Shown here one piece after another: positions 28,090 through 39,060 of a DNA stretch of 62,000 bases. The stretch spans positions 1 through 62,000 of the forward strand of contig CASHSZ010000091.1 in NCBI GenBank assembly GCA_949358305.1, written 5' to 3'. The stretch is from Strigamia acuminata (lineage: Eukaryota > Arthropoda > Chilopoda > Geophilomorpha > Linotaeniidae). The notes beneath the pieces are model-generated. The model was not told where the DNA came from. It did not search any database and worked only from the letters and a program-made list of their open reading frames with translations. The position numbers and the translations under genes are program-made. The first letter of the stretch is position 1; each line of letters starts with the position of its first letter.

Positions 28090-29700
28090 ATCAAAAGTCT
28101 ATTCTCCCAAATCATTAGTTGGATGTTTCTAAAACTTACATTGGAGCCTTCTACTAAGGTTTAAACACTATTTCTGAACATTCAGAGACATTGGTCTTGT
28201 GGTGTTTGTGCTAAGTCAACTGTGATGAGATCAAAAGTCTATTCTCCCAAATCATCGGTTAAATGTTTCTAAAACTTACATTGGAGCCTTCTACTAAGGT
28301 TTAAACACTATTTCTGAACATTCAGAGACATTGGTCTTGTGGTGTTTGTGCTAAGTCAACTGTGATGAGATCAAAAGTCTATTCTCCCAAATCATCGGTT
28401 GGATGTTTCTAAAACTTACATTGGAGCCTTCTACTAAGGTTTAAACACTATTTCTGAACGTTCAGAGACATTGGACTTGTGGTGTTTGTGCTAAGTCAAC
28501 TGCGATGTGAAATGAGCTCAAAATTTTTTTTTCAAAATTTATTGCTTGGGTGTTGCTAAAACTTAGATTGAAGGCTTCTACTAAGGTTTAAACACTATTT
28601 CTGAACATTCAGAGACATTGGTCTTGTGGTGTTTGTGCTAAGTCAACTGCGATGTGAAATGAGCTCAAAATTTTTTTCTTCAAAATTTAATGCTTGGGTG
28701 TTGCTAAAACTTATATTGAAGGCTTCTACTAAGGTTTAAACACTATTTCTGAACATACAGAGACATTGGACTTGTGGTGTTTGTGCTAAGTAACTGTGAT
28801 GAGATCAAAAGTCTATTCTCCCAAATCATTGCTTGGATGTTGCTAAAACTTACATTGAAGGCTTCTACTAAGGTTTAAACACTATTTCTGAACATTCAGA
28901 GACATTGGTCTTGTGGTGTTTATGCTAAGTCAACTGTGATGAGATCAAAAGTCTATTCTCCCAAATCATCAGTTGGATGTTTCTAAAACTTACATTGGAG
29001 CCTTCTACTAAGGTTTAAACACTATTTCTGAACATTCAGAGACATTGGTCTTATGGTGTTTGTGCTAAGTCAACTGTGATGAGATCAAAAGTCTATTCTC
29101 CCAAATCATCGGTTGAATGTTTCTAAAACTTACATTGGAGCCTTCTACTAAGGTTTAAACACTATTTCTGAACATTCAGAGACATTGGTCTTGTGGTGTT
29201 TGTGCTAAGTCAACTGTGATGAGATCAAAAGTCTATTCTCCCAAATCATCGGTTGGATGTTTCTAAAACTTACATTGGAGCCTTCTACTAAGGTTTAAAC
29301 ACTATTTCTGAACATTCAGAGACATTGGTCTTGTGGTGTTTGTGCTAAGTCAACTGTGATGAGATCAAAAGTCTATTCTCCCAAATCATCGGTTGAATGT
29401 TTCTAAAACTTACATTGGAGCCTTCTACTAAGGTTTAAACACTATTTCTGAACATTCAGAGACATTGGTCTTGTGGTGTTTGTGCTAAGTCAACTGTGAT
29501 GAGATCAAAAGTCTATTCTCCCAAATCATCGGTTGGATGTTTCTAAAACTTACATTGGAGCCTTCTACTAAGGTTTAAACACTATTTCTGAACATTCAGA
29601 GACATTGGACTTGTGGTGTTTGTGCTAAGTCAACTGCGGTGTAAAATGAGCTCAAAATTTTTTTTTCAAAATTTATTGCTTAGGTGTTGCTAAAACTTAT
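28090..29700 (+). repeat. Satellite block repeated from 17.6-19.2 kb
   Basis: The private variant GAACGTTCAG at 17961 recurs at 28460, an offset of 10499 bp. The monomer order then matches up to the GCGGTGTAAAATGAG monomer (19137 and 29636). The boundaries are approximate. One marker differs: TTATGG near 18692 is TTGTGG here. Confidence 0.7.
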
Positions 29701-29773
29701 ATTGAAGGCTTCTACTAAGGTTTAAACACTATTTCTGAACATTCAGAGACATTGGTCTTGTGGTGTTTGTGCT

Positions 29774-29777
29774 AAGT
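29774..29777. repeat. Target-site duplication AAGT, left copy
   Basis: AAGT ends the interrupted satellite monomer and recurs at 31271-31274. Joining the flanks regenerates the normal satellite string GCTAAGTCAACTGC. Confidence 0.88.
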
Positions 29778-30128
29778 TGTTGCGGTCTGTCAACACCAAA
29801 CAGCTAGGAATGGGGTTGGGGCTATTTGAATTTCCCGCCTCTAAAAACTCAAGTGATCGTATTGTTAAATTCGTACGAAAACCGCGCTGAGAACACAAAT
29901 CCGCACTGAAAACTATTGTTGAATGCATGGAGCATTGATGGGAACACCGTTGATTAATATCCAATGGAGTGCTGAATCAATGGCTAATCCAGGGAAAGGC
30001 TTAACTACTCGCGCCACATTGCTTAAATAACATGAAACGGGAGTAAAATTAAAAACAACTTCTTTAATCTAAGTTAAACAGAAGAGTGATGAAAATACAT
30101 CAATTACATTGGTTCTTTTGGAACCGCA

Positions 30129-30136
30129 CATGCGCA
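30129..30136. promoter_or_regulatory. NRF1-like half site CATGCGCA in solo LTR
   Basis: CATGCGCA resembles half of the NRF1 palindrome. It lies about 60 bp before the X-box-like motif. The call rests on sequence match alone. Confidence 0.25.
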
Positions 30137-30196
30137 GTAACCATTACGGCACGCGCCAAGCCGATAGCGGCGAAATACAATAACAAAAGAAACTCC

Positions 30197-30210
30197 GTTG
30201 TCATAGCAAC
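30197..30210. promoter_or_regulatory. X-box-like palindrome in solo LTR
   Basis: GTTGTCATAGCAAC differs from the classical RFX-bound palindrome by two transitions. It sits in a longer inverted repeat, CTCCGTTG (30193-30200) and CAACGGAG (30207-30214). It could be an RFX site or only a hairpin. Confidence 0.35.
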
Positions 30211-30368
30211 GGAGGAAACGAAATCACAGCAAAGTTGTAGTTACATAAAAACTGCACGAAATAAAGATTGTGACATACTAAAATGATCACAAGAATACCA
30301 GGAATATTTAATCTAATCACAACAATAAGATCTGAAAAGTAAAACAGTGCAAACGGAGCAAAAACAAT

Positions 30369-30387
30369 GATCGTCAAGCAGACGATC
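30369..30387. other. Perfect 7-bp hairpin in solo LTR
   Basis: GATCGTC, a 5-nt loop AAGCA, then GACGATC. The stem is perfect. Function is unknown. Confidence 0.5.
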
Positions 30388-30753
30388 GAGACAGCCAATC
30401 AGCGTCAAGCAAAATGATGTCATCAAAACATTTGAATTCCGAACGGAATAAAAATGCAAAAATAGCAAAGAATACAGGTGAAAACACTTCGAAATGAAAT
30501 AATAAATAAGTATAATAGTATAATAAATTCAAAGCAAACGATTACATCATCAAAATTGCCGATAAATCAACATGGCGCCCAACGGTCACCTAATCGGCGG
30601 CAAAGCAACACAGTTTGAAAATACAAGTTTAAGATTTGAATAAAAACACCTGACAATGTTGAAATAAATATAGGAAATATAATTTCCCGAACAAAACCAC
30701 ACTATTTAATCAAAACTACACAGAAATGGATCGTAACACGAACGAAACGAACA

Positions 30754-30784
30754 TCGTCGGCCGCGCCCATATGGTGGCCGACGA
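30754..30784. other. GC-rich 9-bp hairpin in solo LTR
   Basis: TCGTCGGCC at 30754-30762 pairs with GGCCGACGA at 30776-30784 across a 13-nt loop. It is a conspicuous GC-rich island in AT-rich DNA and could be a structured RNA element of the LTR. Confidence 0.5.
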
Positions 30785-30954
30785 CGAACGTTCGTAACGA
30801 CGAAACGAAAACTCTATGACAAAATCTGAGCACACCAAACGAAAGAGCACACCGGAATTAGTACAAAACAATACTAAAACACAACAAAACTACCATAAAA
30901 AGGTGAAAACGAAACGTTAGAAGTTCTGAAATAATAAGACTAGGAATTGAAAAA

Positions 30955-30962
30955 TGACGTCA
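30955..30962. promoter_or_regulatory. Perfect CRE palindrome TGACGTCA
   Basis: This is a full CREB/ATF consensus octamer inside the solo LTR. A decayed relative, TGATGTCATCA, lies at 30415-30425. Binding-site identity is inferred from sequence only. Confidence 0.4.
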
Positions 30963-31270
30963 CGCGTATAGCGTAACTGTGCTGCATTTCGACGAATGCA
31001 CTCAAAAATGCCGTACAACAAGAAAAATGCATTAGAATTGATAAAATAAAACAAAATACGCAATAAAATACTGAAAATAAGTGACAATAAATTGAATTAT
31101 CCCATTTCACAACACTAAAACACTAAATAACATTGAAAAAGTTTAATAAGTCAAAATTCCTGCAAAGTGAAAAATAAAACACTAAAGGAAAATTAAACAA
31201 ATCAAAGCAAATTAGTAATATTTATTGACACAATCTCAGCACAACAATTCTTCCACGCTGTCTTGCAACA

Positions 31271-31413
31271 AAGTCAACTGCAATGTAAAATAAGCTCAAA
31301 ATTTTTTTTTCAAAATTTAATGCTTGGGTGTTGCTAAAACTTATATTGAAGGCTTCTACTAAGGTTTAAACACTATTTCTGAACATTCAGAGACATTGGA
31401 CTTGTGGTGTTTG
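31271..31413 (+). repeat. Single satellite monomer between the two insertions
   Basis: A type B monomer begins with AAGT, the right target duplication of the solo LTR, and ends with TTTG, the left target duplication of the next element. Its AACTGCAATGTAAAAT motif matches monomers near 19.28 kb and 26.66 kb. The distance between the two target sites is 139 bp both here and in the uninterrupted copy at 26660-26799. Confidence 0.95.
31410..31413. repeat. Target-site duplication TTTG, left copy
   Basis: TTTG precedes the 5' LTR and recurs at 37097-37100. Joining the flanks restores the satellite string GGTGTTTGTGCTAAG. Confidence 0.92.
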
Positions 31414-31607
31414 TGTTTCGAGCAACAGAAAGGAGGAAAGAGAGACCACAACTGCTCGTCAATTTGATAGTAGTTTGATTTTATGTGTTCGAAAATGTAA
31501 AGAAGAGTTACTAATTTTGGTCTTATAATTGTATTATTTATTTAGCAAATATCTAATCTTTTTCTGTTGTAATAGGAATTTTACATGTCTTTTTTGTGTG
31601 CCAATTT

Positions 31608-31612
31608 TCAGT
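31608..31612 (+). promoter_or_regulatory. Candidate initiator TCAGT in 5' LTR
   Basis: TCAGT matches the arthropod initiator core. If transcription starts here, R would include the ATTAAA at 31899-31904, a workable order for an LTR. A second TCAGT at 32046-32050, followed by ATAGG, is an alternative but would leave ATTAAA upstream of the start. No strong TATA box is evident. Confidence 0.3.
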
Positions 31613-31898
31613 AAAGACAATGTTTGTTAGGTATTTTATCTCTTAGAATGACAAGGTCAAGGTTTAGGAATTTTTAGTCTTGTTTTCCAATGATTTCTGT
31701 TAATTTTAAGTTGATTTTATCTCTATTATGAGGCACAATGCAAGCTTTAACTTATGTTATTTATGAATTTAGTCACTAGGTGCCTCATGAGTTTGTTGTT
31801 GCTATAGAATTGTTGTTGTTATGAAGTTGTTACACTCTTGTTATGAAGAATTAGATGTAGTTAAGTTGAATTTGCCTCCATGTTAATGTTTTGAAATG

Positions 31899-31904
31899 AT
31901 TAAA
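31899..31904 (+). terminator. Candidate poly(A) signal ATTAAA in the LTR
   Basis: ATTAAA is the common variant of the polyadenylation hexamer. The equivalent in the 3' LTR is at 36867-36872, where it would act to end the element's RNA. It is a short motif in AT-rich DNA, so support is limited. Confidence 0.3.
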
Positions 31905-32132
31905 AGCATTATCTGGATTTTTCTACACAAAGGTTTATTTTATTCAACATCCAACATGTGTGAGTAGGGAAATTTAACCCCAAACTCCCTGGAGCAGCTC
32001 CCCACAAGATCCAGTGCAGAAACTCAAGTCAACTCATTTCTCCTCTCAGTATAGGCCTATGGGAAATTTGCCAAGAATTCCCCATCGCGTTACAACTCGT
32101 CGCATCACGGCAGTGGCGAGTTGCAACATTTT

Positions 32133-32146
32133 TGGTACCGTGACCC
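32133..32146 (+). other. Primer-binding-site candidate
   Basis: TGGTACCGTGACCC begins 4 nt after the 5' LTR. It starts with TGG, complementary to the CCA end of a tRNA, as expected for minus-strand primer binding. I cannot assign the tRNA with confidence. Confidence 0.65.
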
Positions 32147-33298
32147 AAGGATTTTGTTGTTGCCAACCAGGATTTTCGTCCAGTTTTTCCAGTGGATTTC
32201 AGTGCACGTCATTGCATTTTTAGCCAGGTGTGTGACGTCGATTTCACGGTGATTTGCGTGTGTGTTCCCAGCTTCACAGTGAGGCAGTGTGTGGCATCTA
32301 GTTCGCAGTAAGCAGTGTGTGGTGCCGATTTTCGTGGTGTGAAGTGTGTGACAACAAGTTTTTTGATTTATTTCCACTGGATTATTGTCGCCAATTGCGA
32401 CAGAAGTGTGTTTGTGCTGTGTCGTCCTTCGCAGGCGTCAGGGAGTTGATTCGTCAGTGGATTTTATGTCAAGTGTAACGAGTTCGGAGTCCTTCTACTG
32501 TGGCGGTCAACATAAGGAGACAAGCAAGCGATTTCCTGGTCAACAATTTGAGAAACACAACGCAATGTCAATCTTCAAGTTTATCTGCAGCTGAAAAAAG
32601 AACAAGATTAATTTTAATTCAATTGCTGTTAGAATTTAAGAATTATATTTACTGAAATTAATTCTTTGTCTAATTTTCCAAGGGAGTTTCTGCCAATTTC
32701 GAGCTGTATTTGGGGAGTTTAAAAGGGGTTTTTTTTCATGTCAATAAGTTTGAATATCAAGTTATTATCTCTTTTGTGCGGGGCTATTATTAAATATAGC
32801 TATTATCTCTATTGTGCGGCGCTATTGTATATGATAGCTATTATCTCTTTTGTGCGGCGCTATTATTAAATATAGCTATTATCTCTTTGTGCGGGGTTAT
32901 TGTAAAATATAACTATTTATCTCTTTTGTGCAGTGTTATTGTAAAAGATAACTATTTATCTCGGTTGTGCGGTTAGATATTGAATATTAATTTCGAATTA
33001 AGTGCATTTTGGGGGAATTATCTAGATATTTATGCGGATAAGTTCATTTGTGCGGTCAATAATTCCGTCCCAGTGTATTACGTATAGTGTGTTAAGTCAA
33101 TTTGTCTGTAGTATTCCGGAGTTGAGTTTAGCATTTTATTTCGAGGTCGTTTTTCATTTGCACACCGCATTTGAATTAACGTTAAGCAAGTATAAGTAAG
33201 AGTCTGTGAAGTTCGGAGAATATTCGTGGGAATTTAATTCGCAGTTATTGAGTTGTTGAATAGAATTTTTATTCTCATTCTCTCTTTCTCGAGAATAA
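32147..33298 (+). other. Leader of the retrotransposon (5' UTR)
   Basis: About 1.15 kb between the primer-binding site and the Gag start, with no convincing gene. It contains an upstream ATG at 32466 opening a 42-codon frame that stops at 32594, which might reduce scanning to the main start. It also contains a 38-bp tandem repeat (32763-32980). A packaging signal would be expected here but cannot be recognised. Confidence 0.75.
32763..32980 (+). repeat. 38-bp minisatellite in the leader, about six units
   Basis: TATCT recurs at 32766, 32804, 32842, 32880, 32918 and 32957, steps of 38 (once 39) bp. Each unit carries TTATCTC, then a TTGTGCGG-like box (GTGCAG in the fifth), mostly followed by TATTAT or TATTGTA; the last unit ends earlier. 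The units have diverged, so the repeat is older than the element's insertion. It could form repeated RNA structures or act as an enhancer or packaging element; function is unknown. Confidence 0.85.
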
Positions 33299-36200
33299 AT
33301 GGCAACTGCGGCTGGTTTGACCACGGAAGCAGCGGAAGAGAAAGAAACACAATGGCAAGCCAAGGCCCAAGGAGCAGAGGATCTGCTCTTGACATCTGCA
33401 AACGTTCTCGACGGGGGTGAGCTTGAAGCTCTCCACGCAACAATAGATGCGCAGTTGAGTGACCTTATTGATGAGCTCGCTGTCTTTAAAGACAAAATAG
33501 AACGTTCAGATTACCTGCTTGGTTTGAGACGTCTTGAAGACATTAGGACAAAGGTCAATCTTCTTAAGCAAAGGACAAAGTTTTCGAAGCAGATGCAGGA
33601 CAAGTTTGGGGCCCATCCAGGCGGCAATACGTTAATGAATTCGGGATTTCTGAACAACTCATCAATCATATCACGGAAGACTACAAAGCTTCCAAAGCTG
33701 ACTCTTCAGAAATTTGACGGGAATCCGATGGAGTATAAGAGCTTCATGGATATGTTTTCAACCACAGTTGACGCCGATGCCGAGTTATCGAACGTCGAAA
33801 AACTTCAATATCTTAAATCAAGCTGTATCGGGGAAGCTGAAGTGGCGATTAAGTCGTACCCACTTACTAACGATTCGTATTTAATGGCACTTAGCAGTTT
33901 AGAAGGACTTTTTGGGTCAGAAGTAGCCCAAAAGAACGCTCTGGCGAGGAAAATTCGTGAAGCCGAAGCAGTTAAAGATTTGTACCCAATCCAGCCGGTA
34001 AAATCTCTATTGACGTCCCTCACCGGTGCTTTCCGAACATTAGAACAGTTGAAGTTCCCAGTTACGACTACTGGATTATTTCTAATCCCGGAATTATTGC
34101 GGAAGTTTCCACCGGAATTGGGAAGACGATTTCATAGGATTTACAAAGGAAACGTAGAAAACGTTAATTTATTTCTCGAATTTGTAGCAAGCGAAGTCAG
34201 AGTAGCAGAATTATCAGACGATAGCGTATTTACCAGTCAGAAAGTCACCAAGAAAAGTGAGAAACCAGCAACTAGAGAGCAAAAAGAAGAATTACGAGGG
34301 ACCATGTCATCTTGCGCGGTTGCGCAAAATACGTCATTCGGGTCCAATACGAAAGAATCATTCAAACCAAAATCAGGTCCAGTCCGGAAATTGATCTGTG
34401 CCTTCTGTGAAGGAGATCATTTTAACAATAATTGCGACGCAAATCTGGAAGTTTCGGAGAAATACGACATCGTTAAGCGAAAACGTCTATGCTTTAATTG
34501 CCTGAGACCAAGCCATACAGTGGGTAACTGCCCTGTAAAATTTTGTTGCCGATCATGCGGTGGTCGACACCATTCTTCAATTTGTAACAGAGGTCATGCG
34601 GAAAAGCCAACTGATACCAAAGAAGAGAACGTCTCCGCCAACGTCTCGTTGTCGGTCTCAAGTGACGTCCAGCTAATGGTTTTCACAGCCTTGTTCGTCC
34701 GAAAGAGTGGCAAAACAATCCCAGTTCGTGGATTACTCGATCCGGGTAGTCATCGTTCATATATTACGAAGCGGTTAGCAAAGAAATTACACCTAAACAA
34801 GATTGAGACGTATCACACCATGACCCAGTGTCTGCTGAACAAGGAACCAGTTCCTACAACTCATGACGTGTTTAGATTCGAGTTGCAGTCTCGTCACGAC
34901 AAGCAGAAAGTGTCTGTATTTGCTCTTGATATCGACACACTTCCCAATATAAAGGGAGTGGTAAATCACCAGACGCTGCAACAAATCAAGTCGTTTAATC
35001 TTGAGATGGCAGAACCACATCCCTCCGTGTCGGATGAGGTAGATGTCTTGATCGGAAGCGGAGCATGGTGGAAAATAATTCAAGCGGGAACGAAGAGAAT
35101 TAGTCCAGAATTAGGAATGATGAAAACAGTTTTTGGATGGATTTTAAACGGACGAATTAACTCAAAAGAGCCTTCCATCTACAAAGACGATATCTCACTG
35201 GGAGATGTATCGTGTATGGCGATCGATTCTGGAAAGAAGATGACTTTCAACACTTCAAAAAAGGACAAAGGCGGGTTTGGACAGGCGAATTCCACATCAA
35301 TGCCCGACGAGAAAAGCGAAAAGGGTGGAGTACGAGCAAAAGGCGTCATCGCTTCTCGTTTTGCCGCGAGCCGCTCTAGCGAGCTGGAGGTACGGCATCC
35401 TGACGTCCCCATCGAATTGGAAATGGATGGAAAGCGGACGTTTAAAGGGATAAGGTCGGGCAAGATGGCGATTTCTCAGAGTCCTGACACACTGGAGTCT
35501 ACGGAAAAGAAAGGAGAATTTCCGAAAAATTTCAAAAAAGATGAAGAAAAGGGTTTAAGTAAATGGAGGAAGATATTGAAATGGAGTCGCAAGAAACTCA
35601 CCAATTCGCACAGAAGATCAAATGCAGTCACAAAGGCCACGGGAAATATACATTTAGTAATTGGCCCAATGTTTTCTGGAAAAACTACTGCTTTACTTAA
35701 TGTAATCCGAAATGAAGAAGAAAATTCTTGCCTGCTTGTTAAGCATTTGACAGACGTTAGATATAGTAAAGATGAAATGGTTAGCCACACCGGACAACGA
35801 CGTCCAGCGGTTCGGGTCGCGTTGTTACAGGAAATCAAGAAAATTGCGGAGTCGGTCAAGACGATAGGTATCGACGAAGGGCAATTTTTCGGAGACATCG
35901 ATTCGTTTTCCGACAAAATGGCGAACGAAGGAAAGAATGTAATAATTGCCGCTTTAAATGGTGATTTTAAGAGACAGGAATTCAAGGCAGTATCTAATCT
36001 CATTCCACTAGCGGAAACTATTGTCAAACTTCATGCCAAATGCCACTTTTGTGGAAACCAAGCGTCATTCACCAAACGAATATCGGGCGAAACGCAAGTT
36101 CAGGTTGTAGGAGGAGAGGAGAAATACAAGCCGACGTGTCGTACCTGTTTTCAGAAATCAATCAATTCTATAGAAGTCAAGAGAAAGCTAATTAATGAAG

Positions 36201-36307
36201 CGGCACATTTAAGTTTAGCGATTTTGAATCGAAGATTACCTCCATGGGTGGCCAGTTTGATCCGCAAAAAAAATTGCGCTTACCTTAAGGAGTCATTAGG
36301 GAGCTGA
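33299..36307 (+). CDS. Gag-protease-thymidine kinase polyprotein
   Basis: A 1002-aa polyprotein of a BEL/Pao-type retrotransposon. The ATG follows an in-frame TAA directly and has a strong context (A at -3, G at +4), so the start is secure. Order: N-terminal helical region (1-125); DUF1759-like Gag with KLPKLTLQKFDGNPMEYKSF (130-149); three zinc knuckles (C367-C379, C398-C411, C417-C429); DUF1758-like aspartic protease (about 460-622), its active-site box reading LLDPGSHRSYI with Asp481; a 160-residue linker rich in charged residues; a thymidine kinase domain (783-953) with P-loop GPMFSGKT (789-796), IDEGQFF with Glu860, four zinc cysteines (915, 918, 947, 950) and the lasso segment GGEEKYKP (938-945); and a 49-residue tail. 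Family knowledge: type II TK phosphorylates thymidine with ATP. RT, RNase H and integrase are absent. Oddity: DPG replaces the usual D-S/T-G of the protease. Whether the kinase is cleaved free or acts inside particles is unknown. Confidence 0.95.
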   Translation: MATAAGLTTEAAEEKETQWQAKAQGAEDLLLTSANVLDGGELEALHATIDAQLSDLIDELAVFKDKIERSDYLLGLRRLEDIRTKVNLLKQRTKFSKQMQDKFGAHPGGNTLMNSGFLNNSSIISRKTTKLPKLTLQKFDGNPMEYKSFMDMFSTTVDADAELSNVEKLQYLKSSCIGEAEVAIKSYPLTNDSYLMALSSLEGLFGSEVAQKNALARKIREAEAVKDLYPIQPVKSLLTSLTGAFRTLEQLKFPVTTTGLFLIPELLRKFPPELGRRFHRIYKGNVENVNLFLEFVASEVRVAELSDDSVFTSQKVTKKSEKPATREQKEELRGTMSSCAVAQNTSFGSNTKESFKPKSGPVRKLICAFCEGDHFNNNCDANLEVSEKYDIVKRKRLCFNCLRPSHTVGNCPVKFCCRSCGGRHHSSICNRGHAEKPTDTKEENVSANVSLSVSSDVQLMVFTALFVRKSGKTIPVRGLLDPGSHRSYITKRLAKKLHLNKIETYHTMTQCLLNKEPVPTTHDVFRFELQSRHDKQKVSVFALDIDTLPNIKGVVNHQTLQQIKSFNLEMAEPHPSVSDEVDVLIGSGAWWKIIQAGTKRISPELGMMKTVFGWILNGRINSKEPSIYKDDISLGDVSCMAIDSGKKMTFNTSKKDKGGFGQANSTSMPDEKSEKGGVRAKGVIASRFAASRSSELEVRHPDVPIELEMDGKRTFKGIRSGKMAISQSPDTLESTEKKGEFPKNFKKDEEKGLSKWRKILKWSRKKLTNSHRRSNAVTKATGNIHLVIGPMFSGKTTALLNVIRNEEENSCLLVKHLTDVRYSKDEMVSHTGQRRPAVRVALLQEIKKIAESVKTIGIDEGQFFGDIDSFSDKMANEGKNVIIAALNGDFKRQEFKAVSNLIPLAETIVKLHAKCHFCGNQASFTKRISGETQVQVVGGEEKYKPTCRTCFQKSINSIEVKRKLINEAAHLSLAILNRRLPPWVASLIRKKNCAYLKESLGS
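33689..34213 (+). other. Gag domain (DUF1759-like) in the polyprotein
   Basis: Residues 131-305. The LPKL...F-G-P-Y-F pattern followed by EKLQYLKSSCIGEA and LEGLFG is typical of BEL/Pao Gag proteins, which assemble virus-like particles. The region appears complete and unbroken. Confidence 0.88.
34397..34585 (+). other. Three zinc knuckles (nucleocapsid)
   Basis: Residues 367-429. The spacings are C-X2-C-X3-H-X4-C, C-X2-C-X4-H-X4-C and C-X2-C-X3-H-X4-C. All Cys and His ligands are present. They are expected to bind element RNA for packaging. Confidence 0.88.
34676..35164 (+). other. Retropepsin-like protease (DUF1758-like)
   Basis: Residues about 460-622: the active-site loop at 478-488, the second motif VDVLIGSGAWW (581-591) and the terminal FGWILNG (612-618) that typically closes this domain in BEL/Pao. 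The catalytic triplet is D481-P482-G483. Pro482 is encoded CCG, one transition from the Ser codon TCG. Activity is doubtful. Confidence 0.83.
35645..36157 (+). other. Type II thymidine kinase (TK1-like) domain
   Basis: Residues 783-953, about 171 aa, the full catalytic core of the TK1 family. Walker A is GPMFSGKT; the DTRY-like position reads TDVRYSKDE (818-826); the catalytic glutamate is in IDEGQFF; AALNGDFKR (884-892) follows; NLIPLAETIVKL (900-911) leads to CHFCG; and the lasso precedes CRTC. No intron, frameshift or lost motif is visible. The reaction is thymidine + ATP to dTMP + ADP, feeding dTTP. No KEN degradation box, known from vertebrate TK1, is present in the tail. Source (host gene or DNA virus) is unresolved. 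Confidence 0.93.
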
Positions 36308-36381
36308 TCCTAGGTGGATGAGAAGTTTTCAGATTGCTAAGAGGTTCTTCTTCACCTTCTTTTCTTTTCGGCGGCAATCTC
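36308..36381 (+). other. Short 3' non-coding segment before the 3' LTR
   Basis: 74 bp between the stop codon and the 3' LTR. A pyrimidine-rich run (TTCTTCTTCACCTTC and following) occupies the middle. The last bases, GGCGGCAATCTC, are not a polypurine tract, although plus-strand priming normally needs one here. Confidence 0.75.
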
Positions 36382-37096
36382 TGTTTCGAGCAACAGAAAG
36401 GAGGAAAGAGAGACCACAACTGCTCGTCAATTTGATAGTAGTTTGATTTTATGTGTTCGAAAATGTAAAGAAGAGTTACTAATTTTGGTCTTATAATTGT
36501 ATTATTTATTTAGCAAATATCTAATCTTTTTCTGTTGTAATAGGAATTTTACATGTCTTTTTTGTGTGCCAATTTTCAGTAAAGACAATGTTTGTTAGGT
36601 ATTTTATCTCTTAGAATGACAAGGTCAAGGTTTAGGAATTTTTAGTCTTGTTTTCCAATGATTTCTGTTAATTTTAAGTTGATTTTATCTCTATTATGAG
36701 GCACAATGCAAGCTTTAACTTATGTTATTTATGAATTTAGTCACTAGGTGCCTCATGAGTTTGTTGTTGCTATAGAATTGTTGTTGTTATGAAGTTGTTA
36801 CACTCTTGTTATGAAGAATTAGATGTAGTTAAGTTGAATTTGCCTCCATGTTAATGTTTTGAAATGATTAAAAGCATTATCTGGATTTTTCTACACAAAG
36901 GTTTATTTTATTCAACATCCAACATGTGTGAGTAGGGAAATTTAACCCCAAACTCCCTGGAGCAGCTCCCCACAAGATCCAGTGCAGAAACTCAAGTCAA
37001 CTCATTTCTCCTCTCAGTATAGGCCTATGGGAAATTTGCCAAGAATTCCCCATCGCGTTACAACTCGTCGCATCACGGCAGTGGCGAGTTGCAACA
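36382..37096 (+). repeat. 3' LTR (715 bp)
   Basis: The same length and, by eye, the same sequence as the 5' LTR throughout, at an offset of 4968 bp. It ends GTTGCAACA directly before the TTTG target duplication. Confidence 0.96.
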
Positions 37097-39060
37097 TTTG
37101 TGCTAAGTCAACTGTGATGAGATCAAAAGTCTATTCTCCCAAATCATTGGTTGGATGTTTCTAAAACTTACATTGGAGCTTTCTACTAAGGTTTAAACAC
37201 TATTTCTGAACATTCAGAGACATTGGTCTTGTGGTGTTTGTGCTAAGTCAACTGTGATGAGATCAAAAGTCTATTCTCCCAAATCATTGGTTGGATGTTT
37301 CTAAAACTTACATTGGAGCCTTCTACTAAGGTTTAAACACTATTTCTGAACATTCAGAGACATTGGTCTTGTGGTGTTTGTGCTAAGTCAACTGTGATGA
37401 GATCAAAAGTCTATTCTCCCAAATCATCGGTTGAATGTTTCTAAAACTTACATTGGAGCCTTCTACTAAGGTTTAAACACTATTTCTGAACATTCAGAGA
37501 CATTGGTCTTGTGGTGTTTGTGCTAAGTCAACTGTGATGAGATCAAAAGTCTATTCTCCCAAATCATCGGTTAAATGTTTCTAAAACTTACATTGGAGCC
37601 TTCTACTAAGGTTTAAACACTATTTCTGAACATTCAGAGACATTGGTCTTGTGGTGTTTGTGCTAAGTCAACTGTGATGAGATCAAAAGTCTATTCTCCC
37701 AAATCATCGGTTGGATGTTTCTAAAACTTACATTGGAGCCTTCTACTAAGGTTTAAACACTATTTCTGAACATTCAGAGACATTGGTCTTGTGGTGTTTG
37801 TGCTAAGTCAACTGTGATGAGATCAAAAGTCTATTCTCCCAAATCATCGGTTGGATGTTTCTAAAACTTACATTGGAGCCTTCTACTAAGGTTTAAACAC
37901 TATTTCTGAACATTCAGAGACATTGGACTTGTGGTGTTTGTGCTAAGTCAACTGCGATGTAAAATGAGCTCAAAATTTTTTTTTCAAAATTTATTGCTTA
38001 GGTGTTGCTAAAACTTATATTGAAGGCTTCTACTAAGGTTTAAACACTATTTCTGAACATTCAGAGACATTGGTCTTGTGGTGTTTGTGCTAAGTCAACT
38101 GTGATGAGATCAAAAGTCTATTCTCCCAAATCATTGGTTGGATGTTTCTAAAACTTACATTGGAGCCTTCTACTAAGGTTTAAACACTATTTCTGAACAT
38201 TCAGAGACATTGGTCTTGTGGTGTTTGTGCTAAGTCAACTGTGATGAGATCAAAAGTCTATTCTCCCAAATCATCGGTTGAATGTTTCTAAAACTTACAT
38301 TGGAGCCTTCTACTAAGGTTTAAACACTATTTCTGAACATTCAGAGACATTGGTCTTGTGGTGTTTGTGCTAAGTCAACTGTGATGAGATCAAAAGTCTA
38401 TTCTCCCAAATCATCGGTTAAATGTTATAAAACTTACATTGGAGCCTTCTACTAAGGTTTAAACACTATTTCTGAACATTCAGAGACATTGGTCTTGTGG
38501 TGTTTGTGCTAAGTCAACTGTGATGAGATCAAAAGTCTATTCTCCCAAATCATCGGTTGGATGTTTCTAAAACTTACATTGGAGCCTTCTACTAAGGTTT
38601 AAACACTATTTCTGAACATTCAGAGACATTGGTCTTGTGGTGTTTGTGCTAAGTCAACTGTGATGAGATCAAAAGTCTATTCTCCCAAATCATTGGTTGG
38701 ATGTTTCTAAAACTTACATTGGAGCCTTCTACTAAGGTTTAAACACTATTTCTGAACATTCAGAGACATTGGTCTTGTGGTGTTTGTGCTAAGTCAACTG
38801 TGATGAGATCAAAAGTCTATTCTCCCAAATCATCGGTTGGATGTTTCTAAAACTTACATTGGAGCCTTCTACTAAGGTTTAAACACTATTTCTGAACATT
38901 CAGAGACATTGGACTTGTGGTGTTTGTGCTAAGTCAACTGCGATGTAAAATGAGCTCAAAATTTTTTTTTCAAAATTTATTGCTTAGGTGTTGCTAAAAC
39001 TTATATTGAAGGCTTCTACTAAGGTTTAAACACTATTTCTGAACATTCAGAGACATTGGT

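Follow-up and report, generated by a model that had tools for sequence, protein, structure and literature searches.

We found that a BEL/Pao-type long terminal repeat (LTR) retrotransposon in the genome of the centipede Strigamia acuminata carries a complete TK1-type thymidine kinase (TK) where an autonomous BEL element of the same genome carries its pol domains. The existence of a family of captured-TK elements is close to certain. The explanation that we prefer, to which we give a probability of roughly 0.6, is that the element is a non-autonomous BEL/Pao retrotransposon in which captured TK1 replaces pol, that the fusion of TK to Gag and protease (PR) supplies dTMP, and that helper BEL elements provide reverse transcriptase (RT) and integrase. 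Within this explanation, the metabolic role of the TK is the uncertain step.

The window (the whole stretch analyzed, positions 1 to 62,000 of contig CASHSZ010000091.1, forward strand) contains 54,768 bases covered by a 300-bp satellite piece, and its only satellite-free stretches longer than 100 bp lie at 29778–31328 and 31416–37096. The second of these is the TK element, which extends from 31414 to 37096 and is bounded by two 715-bp LTRs, noted as matching in the first-pass annotation and in fact identical, and by a 4-bp target-site duplication (TSD), TTTG. The host DNA of the insertion is a satellite array with a unit of about 140 bp, and TTTG lies within a satellite unit on both sides. The LTR ends read TGTT...AACA, so the element has the TG...CA ends and the short TSD (usually 4–6 bp) that characterize BEL/Pao elements. 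Its features are as follows.

31410..31413, no strand: left copy of the TSD TTTG, inside a 140-bp satellite unit (flank comparison)
31414..32128, + strand: 5' LTR, 715 bp, TGTT...AACA, identical to the 3' LTR (LTR comparison)
32133..32150, + strand: primer-site-like stretch TGGTACCGTGACCCAAGG, 4 nt past the LTR (sequence comparison)
32151..33298, + strand: untranslated leader, with TK at most 5 kb downstream in 36 of 40 scored genome copies (genome search)
33299..36307, + strand: single Gag-PR-TK frame, 1002 codons plus stop (open reading frame)
33713..34144, + strand: Gag domain DUF1759, residues 139–282 (Pfam)
34397..34585, + strand: three Cys/His knuckle-like motifs, residues 367–379, 398–411, and 416–429 (motif placement)
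34733..35152, + strand: aspartic-protease-like region (DUF1758), from LLDPGSHRSY at 479–488 to FGWILNG at 612–618 (profile and BEL homology)
35222..35632, + strand: linker, residues 642–778, weakly conserved (25.6% identity between families A and B; alignments)
35633..36148, + strand: TK1-type thymidine kinase, residues 779–950 (Pfam, structure comparison, selection)
36149..36304, + strand: C-terminal tail, two predicted helices, common to families A, B, and C (model and alignment)
36382..37096, + strand: 3' LTR, 715 bp (LTR comparison)
37097..37100, no strand: right copy of the TSD TTTG (flank comparison)

The frame at 33299–36307, which encodes 1002 amino acids, is the only long frame on the + strand and contains, in order, a BEL/Pao Gag, a protease-like region, a linker, the complete TK, and a helical tail. 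The Gag domain matches Pfam DUF1759 (E = 3.9e-15), as expected for a Gag of the BEL type, and three Cys/His motifs follow that we take to be of the knuckle type. Both protease profiles score below their curated cut-offs (DUF1758, E = 6.8e-4, 19.8 bits against a cut-off of 22; Asp_protease_2, E = 6.7e-5, just below), but the protease reading is supported by collinear homology to the Gag-PR of an autonomous BEL element. The proposal that TK lies in one frame downstream of Gag and protease was borne out, with the protease the weaker part. We considered whether the DPG motif of the protease is a sign of decay and rejected this, because both BEL elements read from the same genome also carry DPG. 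A Pfam domain search of the 1002-residue frame found no RT, RNase H, or integrase domain, a feature that the first-pass annotation had missed. An Rfam scan of 29700–37200 gave no matches.

For comparison, we used an autonomous BEL copy on C1 whose LTR pair (about 920 bp) is 98.4% identical. The first piece of its frame contains DUF1759, DUF1758, RVT_1, and Peptidase_A17, and the adjoining piece contains an integrase zinc domain and DUF5641. In a BLASTP alignment with this copy, residues 8–641 of the window frame align at 36% identity, and the alignment ends just past FGWILNG. Beyond residue ~641, the autonomous copy enters RT, whereas the window element has a 137-residue linker followed by TK. 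Because the BEL homology stops where the autonomous copy enters RT, TK stands in the place of pol, and the window element, which lacks the RT-RNase H-integrase set, is a non-autonomous BEL/Pao derivative.

The TK domain, described at the outset as a complete TK1-like domain, is complete on closer analysis. The Pfam TK profile matches residues 782–951 over all of its 176 positions (E = 1.5e-54), and the P-loop (GPMFSGKT, 789–796), IDEGQFF (858–864), and the two zinc pairs (CHFC/CRTC, 915–918 and 947–950) are all in place. The 24 columns that are invariant across 69 aligned TKs, the window TK included, are also kept in two family B copies and in family C. The solved structure closest in sequence is human TK1 (1xbt, E = 7.4e-45). 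An AlphaFold2 model of residues 770–1002 has a mean pLDDT of 79.6 and a pTM of 0.54, with two loops under 50 and a tail of two helices, and a Foldseek search with this model placed human TK1 chains at the top (E = 5e-15), consistent with the TK1 fold. The whole model superposes poorly on human TK1 (TM score 0.62 by target length and 0.44 by query length, rmsd ~11 Å), and so the fold match leans on the sequence. The window TK is therefore apparently an intact enzyme of the TK1 type, for which kinase activity is predicted from its sequence.

We searched the genome with the TK as query and scored 150 of 200 candidates; counts were made by hand, and copy numbers are lower bounds. At least 97 TK matches belong to three related LTR-element families, which we call A (44), B (52), and C (1). 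Identity to the window TK is 93%–100% in family A (11 contigs), 80% in C, and 55%–58% in B, and 84 of the 97 matches (37 A and 47 B) lie in frames of 995–1013 amino acids with no stop in the match. The remaining 53 of the 150 fall into classes D (5 matches), E (45), and F (3), and in the copies of these classes that we read, TK lies outside any Gag frame. A search with the Gag-PR part (70 scored of 1273 candidates) returned, judged by identity, only copies of A (98%–100%) or B (59%) and one 89% copy on C7. In the C7 copy, an in-frame deletion of residues ~749–886 has removed the P-loop half of TK and the frame is still open, evidence that a copy can persist and stay open without an intact TK.

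All but one of the 30 family A loci compared are open across 489–500 upstream codons and the whole TK, and the other is rearranged upstream. Their right junctions show 22 different flanks, plus two that enter another internal region and represent tandem copies. Both junctions are known for 15 copies (the window copy plus 14), and 13 of these have exact duplications of 4–5 bp; in the other two junction pairs, the match is limited to 2 bp, or to 4 bp of which one is mismatched. As L015 and L019 share a site, and L005, L007, and L008 share another, the 15 copies represent 12 distinct insertion sites, 10 of which have exact 4–5 bp duplications. Chance or misassembly is excluded, because dozens of copies have equally long frames and, in those that were read, an identical order of parts. 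We thus rejected an assembly artefact, a chance join, or a lone insertion as the source of the arrangement, and the view of the first-pass annotation that a BEL/Pao LTR element captured a TK is supported by a join that recurs in dozens of copies at distinct sites.

Searches of the genome with the LTR (40 scored of 101 candidates, 69 matches) and the leader (40 scored of 52 candidates) found no autonomous, pol-bearing sister that shares the LTR or the leader. A TK lies within 5 kb downstream of 36 of the 40 scored leader matches, which runs against the possibility that the relatives of the window element lack TK. Two of the four exceptions are truncated TK elements (L067 and L068), and the other two have a TK match 9–10 kb away.

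Comparison of families A and B gave identities of 58.4% for Gag-PR (residues 249–641), 25.6% for the linker, 55.8% for TK, and 51.2% for the tail. Copy C is an A-like element whose Gag is interrupted by the autonomous BEL copy on C1 described above, an insertion flanked on each side by GAAC. The Gag of copy C is 96.8% identical to that of A before the insertion and ~74% after it, and this unevenness suggests recombination between TK elements. We calculated dN/dS by the Nei-Gojobori method on the natural frames. Between A and the single C copy (dS 0.57–1.47), dN/dS is 0.105 for the Gag part, 0.075 for PR, 0.408 for the linker, 0.111 for TK (dS about 1), and 0.316 for the tail; in this comparison, purifying selection constrains TK as strongly as it does Gag. 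As dS is saturated between A and B, and also between C and B, in every part except the linker, selection of this strength was measured only for A versus C. Within family B (L032 versus L034), TK dN/dS is 0.229, from 13 differences, and among the 11 distinct TK sequences at 30 family A loci, 10 codons vary only silently and 5 show replacements.

An element of this kind would need a helper. We searched for BEL pol with one piece of RT, and by hand count 41 of the 67 matches scored (of 1108 candidates) lie in frames of at least 1763 amino acids without a stop. These matches form two main identity bands, at 92%–100% and 64%–66%. The sequence TTTGGTACCGTGA of the primer-site-like stretch is common to the window element, TK family B, and one autonomous BEL copy. 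One copy of the 64%–66% band has a Gag-PR 38.9% identical to that of A and, as in A, TTTTTGGTACCGTGA upstream of Gag; the copy read from the 92%–100% band has a different stretch at this position. The shared stretch suggests a common primer, and it suggests that elements of the 64%–66% band are the better helper candidates. A search with a tRNA-like pattern gave three matches against six for the control, and so yielded no tRNA for the presumed primer site.

To place the captured TK, we built trees with the other TK copies of the genome and with public proteins, among them the poxviruses that the first-pass annotation had wanted included. In a 47-row tree, A–C join the other TK copies of the genome (support 100/97). 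In a 127-row tree, A, B, and C fall on the same side of a branch (100/95) as classes D, E, and F, and four labelled poxviruses stand apart; the branches are long, and because its 120 public proteins were chosen as the best matches of A, this tree may miss relatives nearer to D–F. These public TKs are 42%–51% identical to the window TK. Approximately unbiased (AU) tests on the 47 rows rejected a grouping of A–C with spider TK (p-AU = 0.025). A transcript from the animal's own lineage is the source that we favour. Animal TK1 genes have introns, and each TK class that we read is one uninterrupted frame, which is what a reverse-transcribed source would give. An intron-bearing host TK1 was not seen among the 150 candidates scored of 200 and of 202, lists that repeat copies fill. 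Derivation from a DNA virus, for example one like a poxvirus, is very unlikely. It draws on the AU test, in which a grouping of A–C with poxviruses is not rejected (p-AU = 0.241), and on the TKs of avian and reptile poxviruses among the public proteins, which at 45%–48% identity are no more distant from the window TK than many animal TK1s are; however, the best trees join A–C to the other TKs of the genome, and none of the 80 viral-contig relatives retained exceeds 37% identity in its best segment.

Three TK classes fall outside the LTR families. Class E (L041, L042, L046, and L047 read) consists of near-identical, intronless 190-residue TK frames in dispersed repeats, with similarity that extends to the ends of the 10-kb stretches compared; two other frames near the TK have no Pfam match, and a third is a copia-type RT. 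The TK frames of class F (L038, L039, and L040) are ~79% identical to class E and lie in stretches of ~42%–59% GC beside N runs, and ten further TK matches fall in the same score band. Class D (L035, L036, L037, L044, and L045) comprises five copies of a 221–239-residue TK frame embedded in several kb of repeated DNA, with a 434-residue frame without a Pfam match adjoining TK in two copies. As the class most like spider TK1 (51%–52%), D is possibly a cellular TK gene.

The explanation that we prefer would begin with a spliced TK mRNA, captured by template switching with the loss of pol, as in retroviral capture of host mRNAs. The LTR transcript would then yield a Gag-PR-TK polyprotein, TK would be carried with Gag into particles, and the active kinase would raise dTMP locally where or when thymidylate is scarce, making dTTP less limiting, while cDNA synthesis and integration would be performed by the enzymes of co-resident autonomous BEL elements. 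The first-pass annotation had proposed that the element supplies dTMP for cDNA synthesis in cells with poor thymidylate pools. This needs amending, because an element in which no polymerase or integrase is found could not make its own cDNA, and any dTMP would serve reverse transcription by the enzymes of other elements. A benefit from dTMP is plausible, given the purifying selection on TK and the parallel with dUTPase-bearing retroelements, which supports the direction of the mechanism. Against our explanation we count the C7 copy with half a TK, the tRNA result, the measurement of strong selection from a single A versus C pair, the poor overall superposition of the TK model, and the two further phosphorylations needed to convert dTMP to dTTP. 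We put forward only tentatively a division of labour in which the pol-less A and B elements supply thymidylate and the autonomous BELs supply RT and integrase, in shared particles or cells; the TK element would then be a metabolic helper, more than a mere parasite.

TK might instead be kept for a non-catalytic role, its oligomer-forming fold aiding Gag assembly or stability and substituting for the missing Pol part. The fusion of TK to Gag-PR in the copies read and the helical tail common to the three families fit such a role, and the dUTPase-related gene of bovine immunodeficiency virus can reportedly be needed without activity (PMC4261571). Scaffold use alone would not require the invariant residues, including the P-loop and zinc cysteines, which the B and C copies that we compared have all retained, and we consider this reading unlikely. 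We find it less likely again that TK was captured by accident and is useless, with the LTR, leader, and Gag signals sufficing for mobilization in trans. An element in which no pol was found depends on others anyway, and one copy has lost half of its TK to an in-frame deletion, but TK has a dN/dS of 0.11 at dS ~1, like Gag, while the adjoining linker has 0.41. That TK benefits the animal, for example by supplying dTTP in the germline or embryo, with the family heading to domestication, is hard to credit at all: the matches in LTR families are numerous (at least 97) and non-LTR TK repeats are also abundant, but the copies are dispersed, most of those checked are flanked by TSDs, and selection acts on Gag and PR as it does on TK, all of which fits selection at the level of the element.

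Elements of the TR-GAG, LARD, and maize Bs1 types have their own LTRs and sometimes their own Gag and are mobilized in trans, and Bs1 holds host gene fragments; we know of none in which a complete enzyme, maintained by purifying selection, is fused to Gag-PR. Gag-onc retroviruses have captured host coding sequence and in most cases lost internal domains. Endogenous retroviruses (ERVs) that capture host mRNAs, such as CrocERV31 with nectin3, are likewise reported to gain host coding sequence in a process that usually deletes part of the internal coding domains (PMC4299795). These are retroviruses, whereas here a BEL/Pao element has acquired an enzyme that is conserved at dS near 1 and has multiplied within two multi-copy families. 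The closest metabolic parallel is provided by LTR retroelements with a dUTPase (rotifer Juno, Vesta, and TelKA, fungal and planarian elements, and betaretroviruses), in which a thymidylate-pool enzyme adjoins the protease in the polyprotein (PMC5408684, PMC6431247, PMC4531489). In rotifer elements, the dUTPase is placed between PR and RT (PMC5408684), an arrangement also described for planarian, fungal, and rotifer elements (PMC6431247), and dUTPase is reported to be important for non-primate lentiviruses in non-dividing cells (PMC4531489). Their enzyme thus sits beside RT, whereas here a kinase of another family replaces RT, RNase H, and integrase. The window element shares with BEL/Pao elements (Belpaoviridae) the DUF1759 Gag, the 4–5 bp TSD, the TG...CA LTR ends, and, less certainly, the DUF1758-like protease, and differs from them in having TK and no RT, RNase H, or integrase that we could find.

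In agreement with the first-pass annotation, which knew of no such BEL/Pao element, our searches of open-licence full texts returned no TK-bearing LTR retrotransposon, as judged by titles and the starts of abstracts. A TK-word search of public proteins of 0.55–1.75 times 1002 amino acids gave 848 candidates, with no Gag-TK fusion at E ≤ 1e-5, a result that we count as weak because such databases seldom hold transposon proteins. As no description was found, the Gag-PR-TK arrangement appears to be a previously undescribed form of pol-less LTR retrotransposon with a captured enzyme, and it would be an unusual example of several element families maintaining a metabolic enzyme that was acquired by capture. 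The dUTPase retroelements point to thymidylate supply as a limit on reverse transcription in some cells, and a pol-less mobile element that keeps TK under strong selection would offer a natural test of this idea.

TK elements and intact autonomous BEL frames share blocks of the genome (C8 6.8–7.7 Mb, the last 3 Mb of C1, and parts of C5 and C13), and the flanks in these blocks, where read, are often the 140-bp satellite. Insertion may be targeted to, or tolerated in, these blocks. One family B copy (L043, C6:15212500-15222000), which has one TGA and is 5'-truncated near the start codon, is nested in another BEL element with a 138-bp repeat alongside. In the window, a 1493-bp insertion at 29778–31270, without a long frame, has TGTTG...CAACA ends and AAGT on both sides within the satellite, and it looks like the solo LTR of another element.
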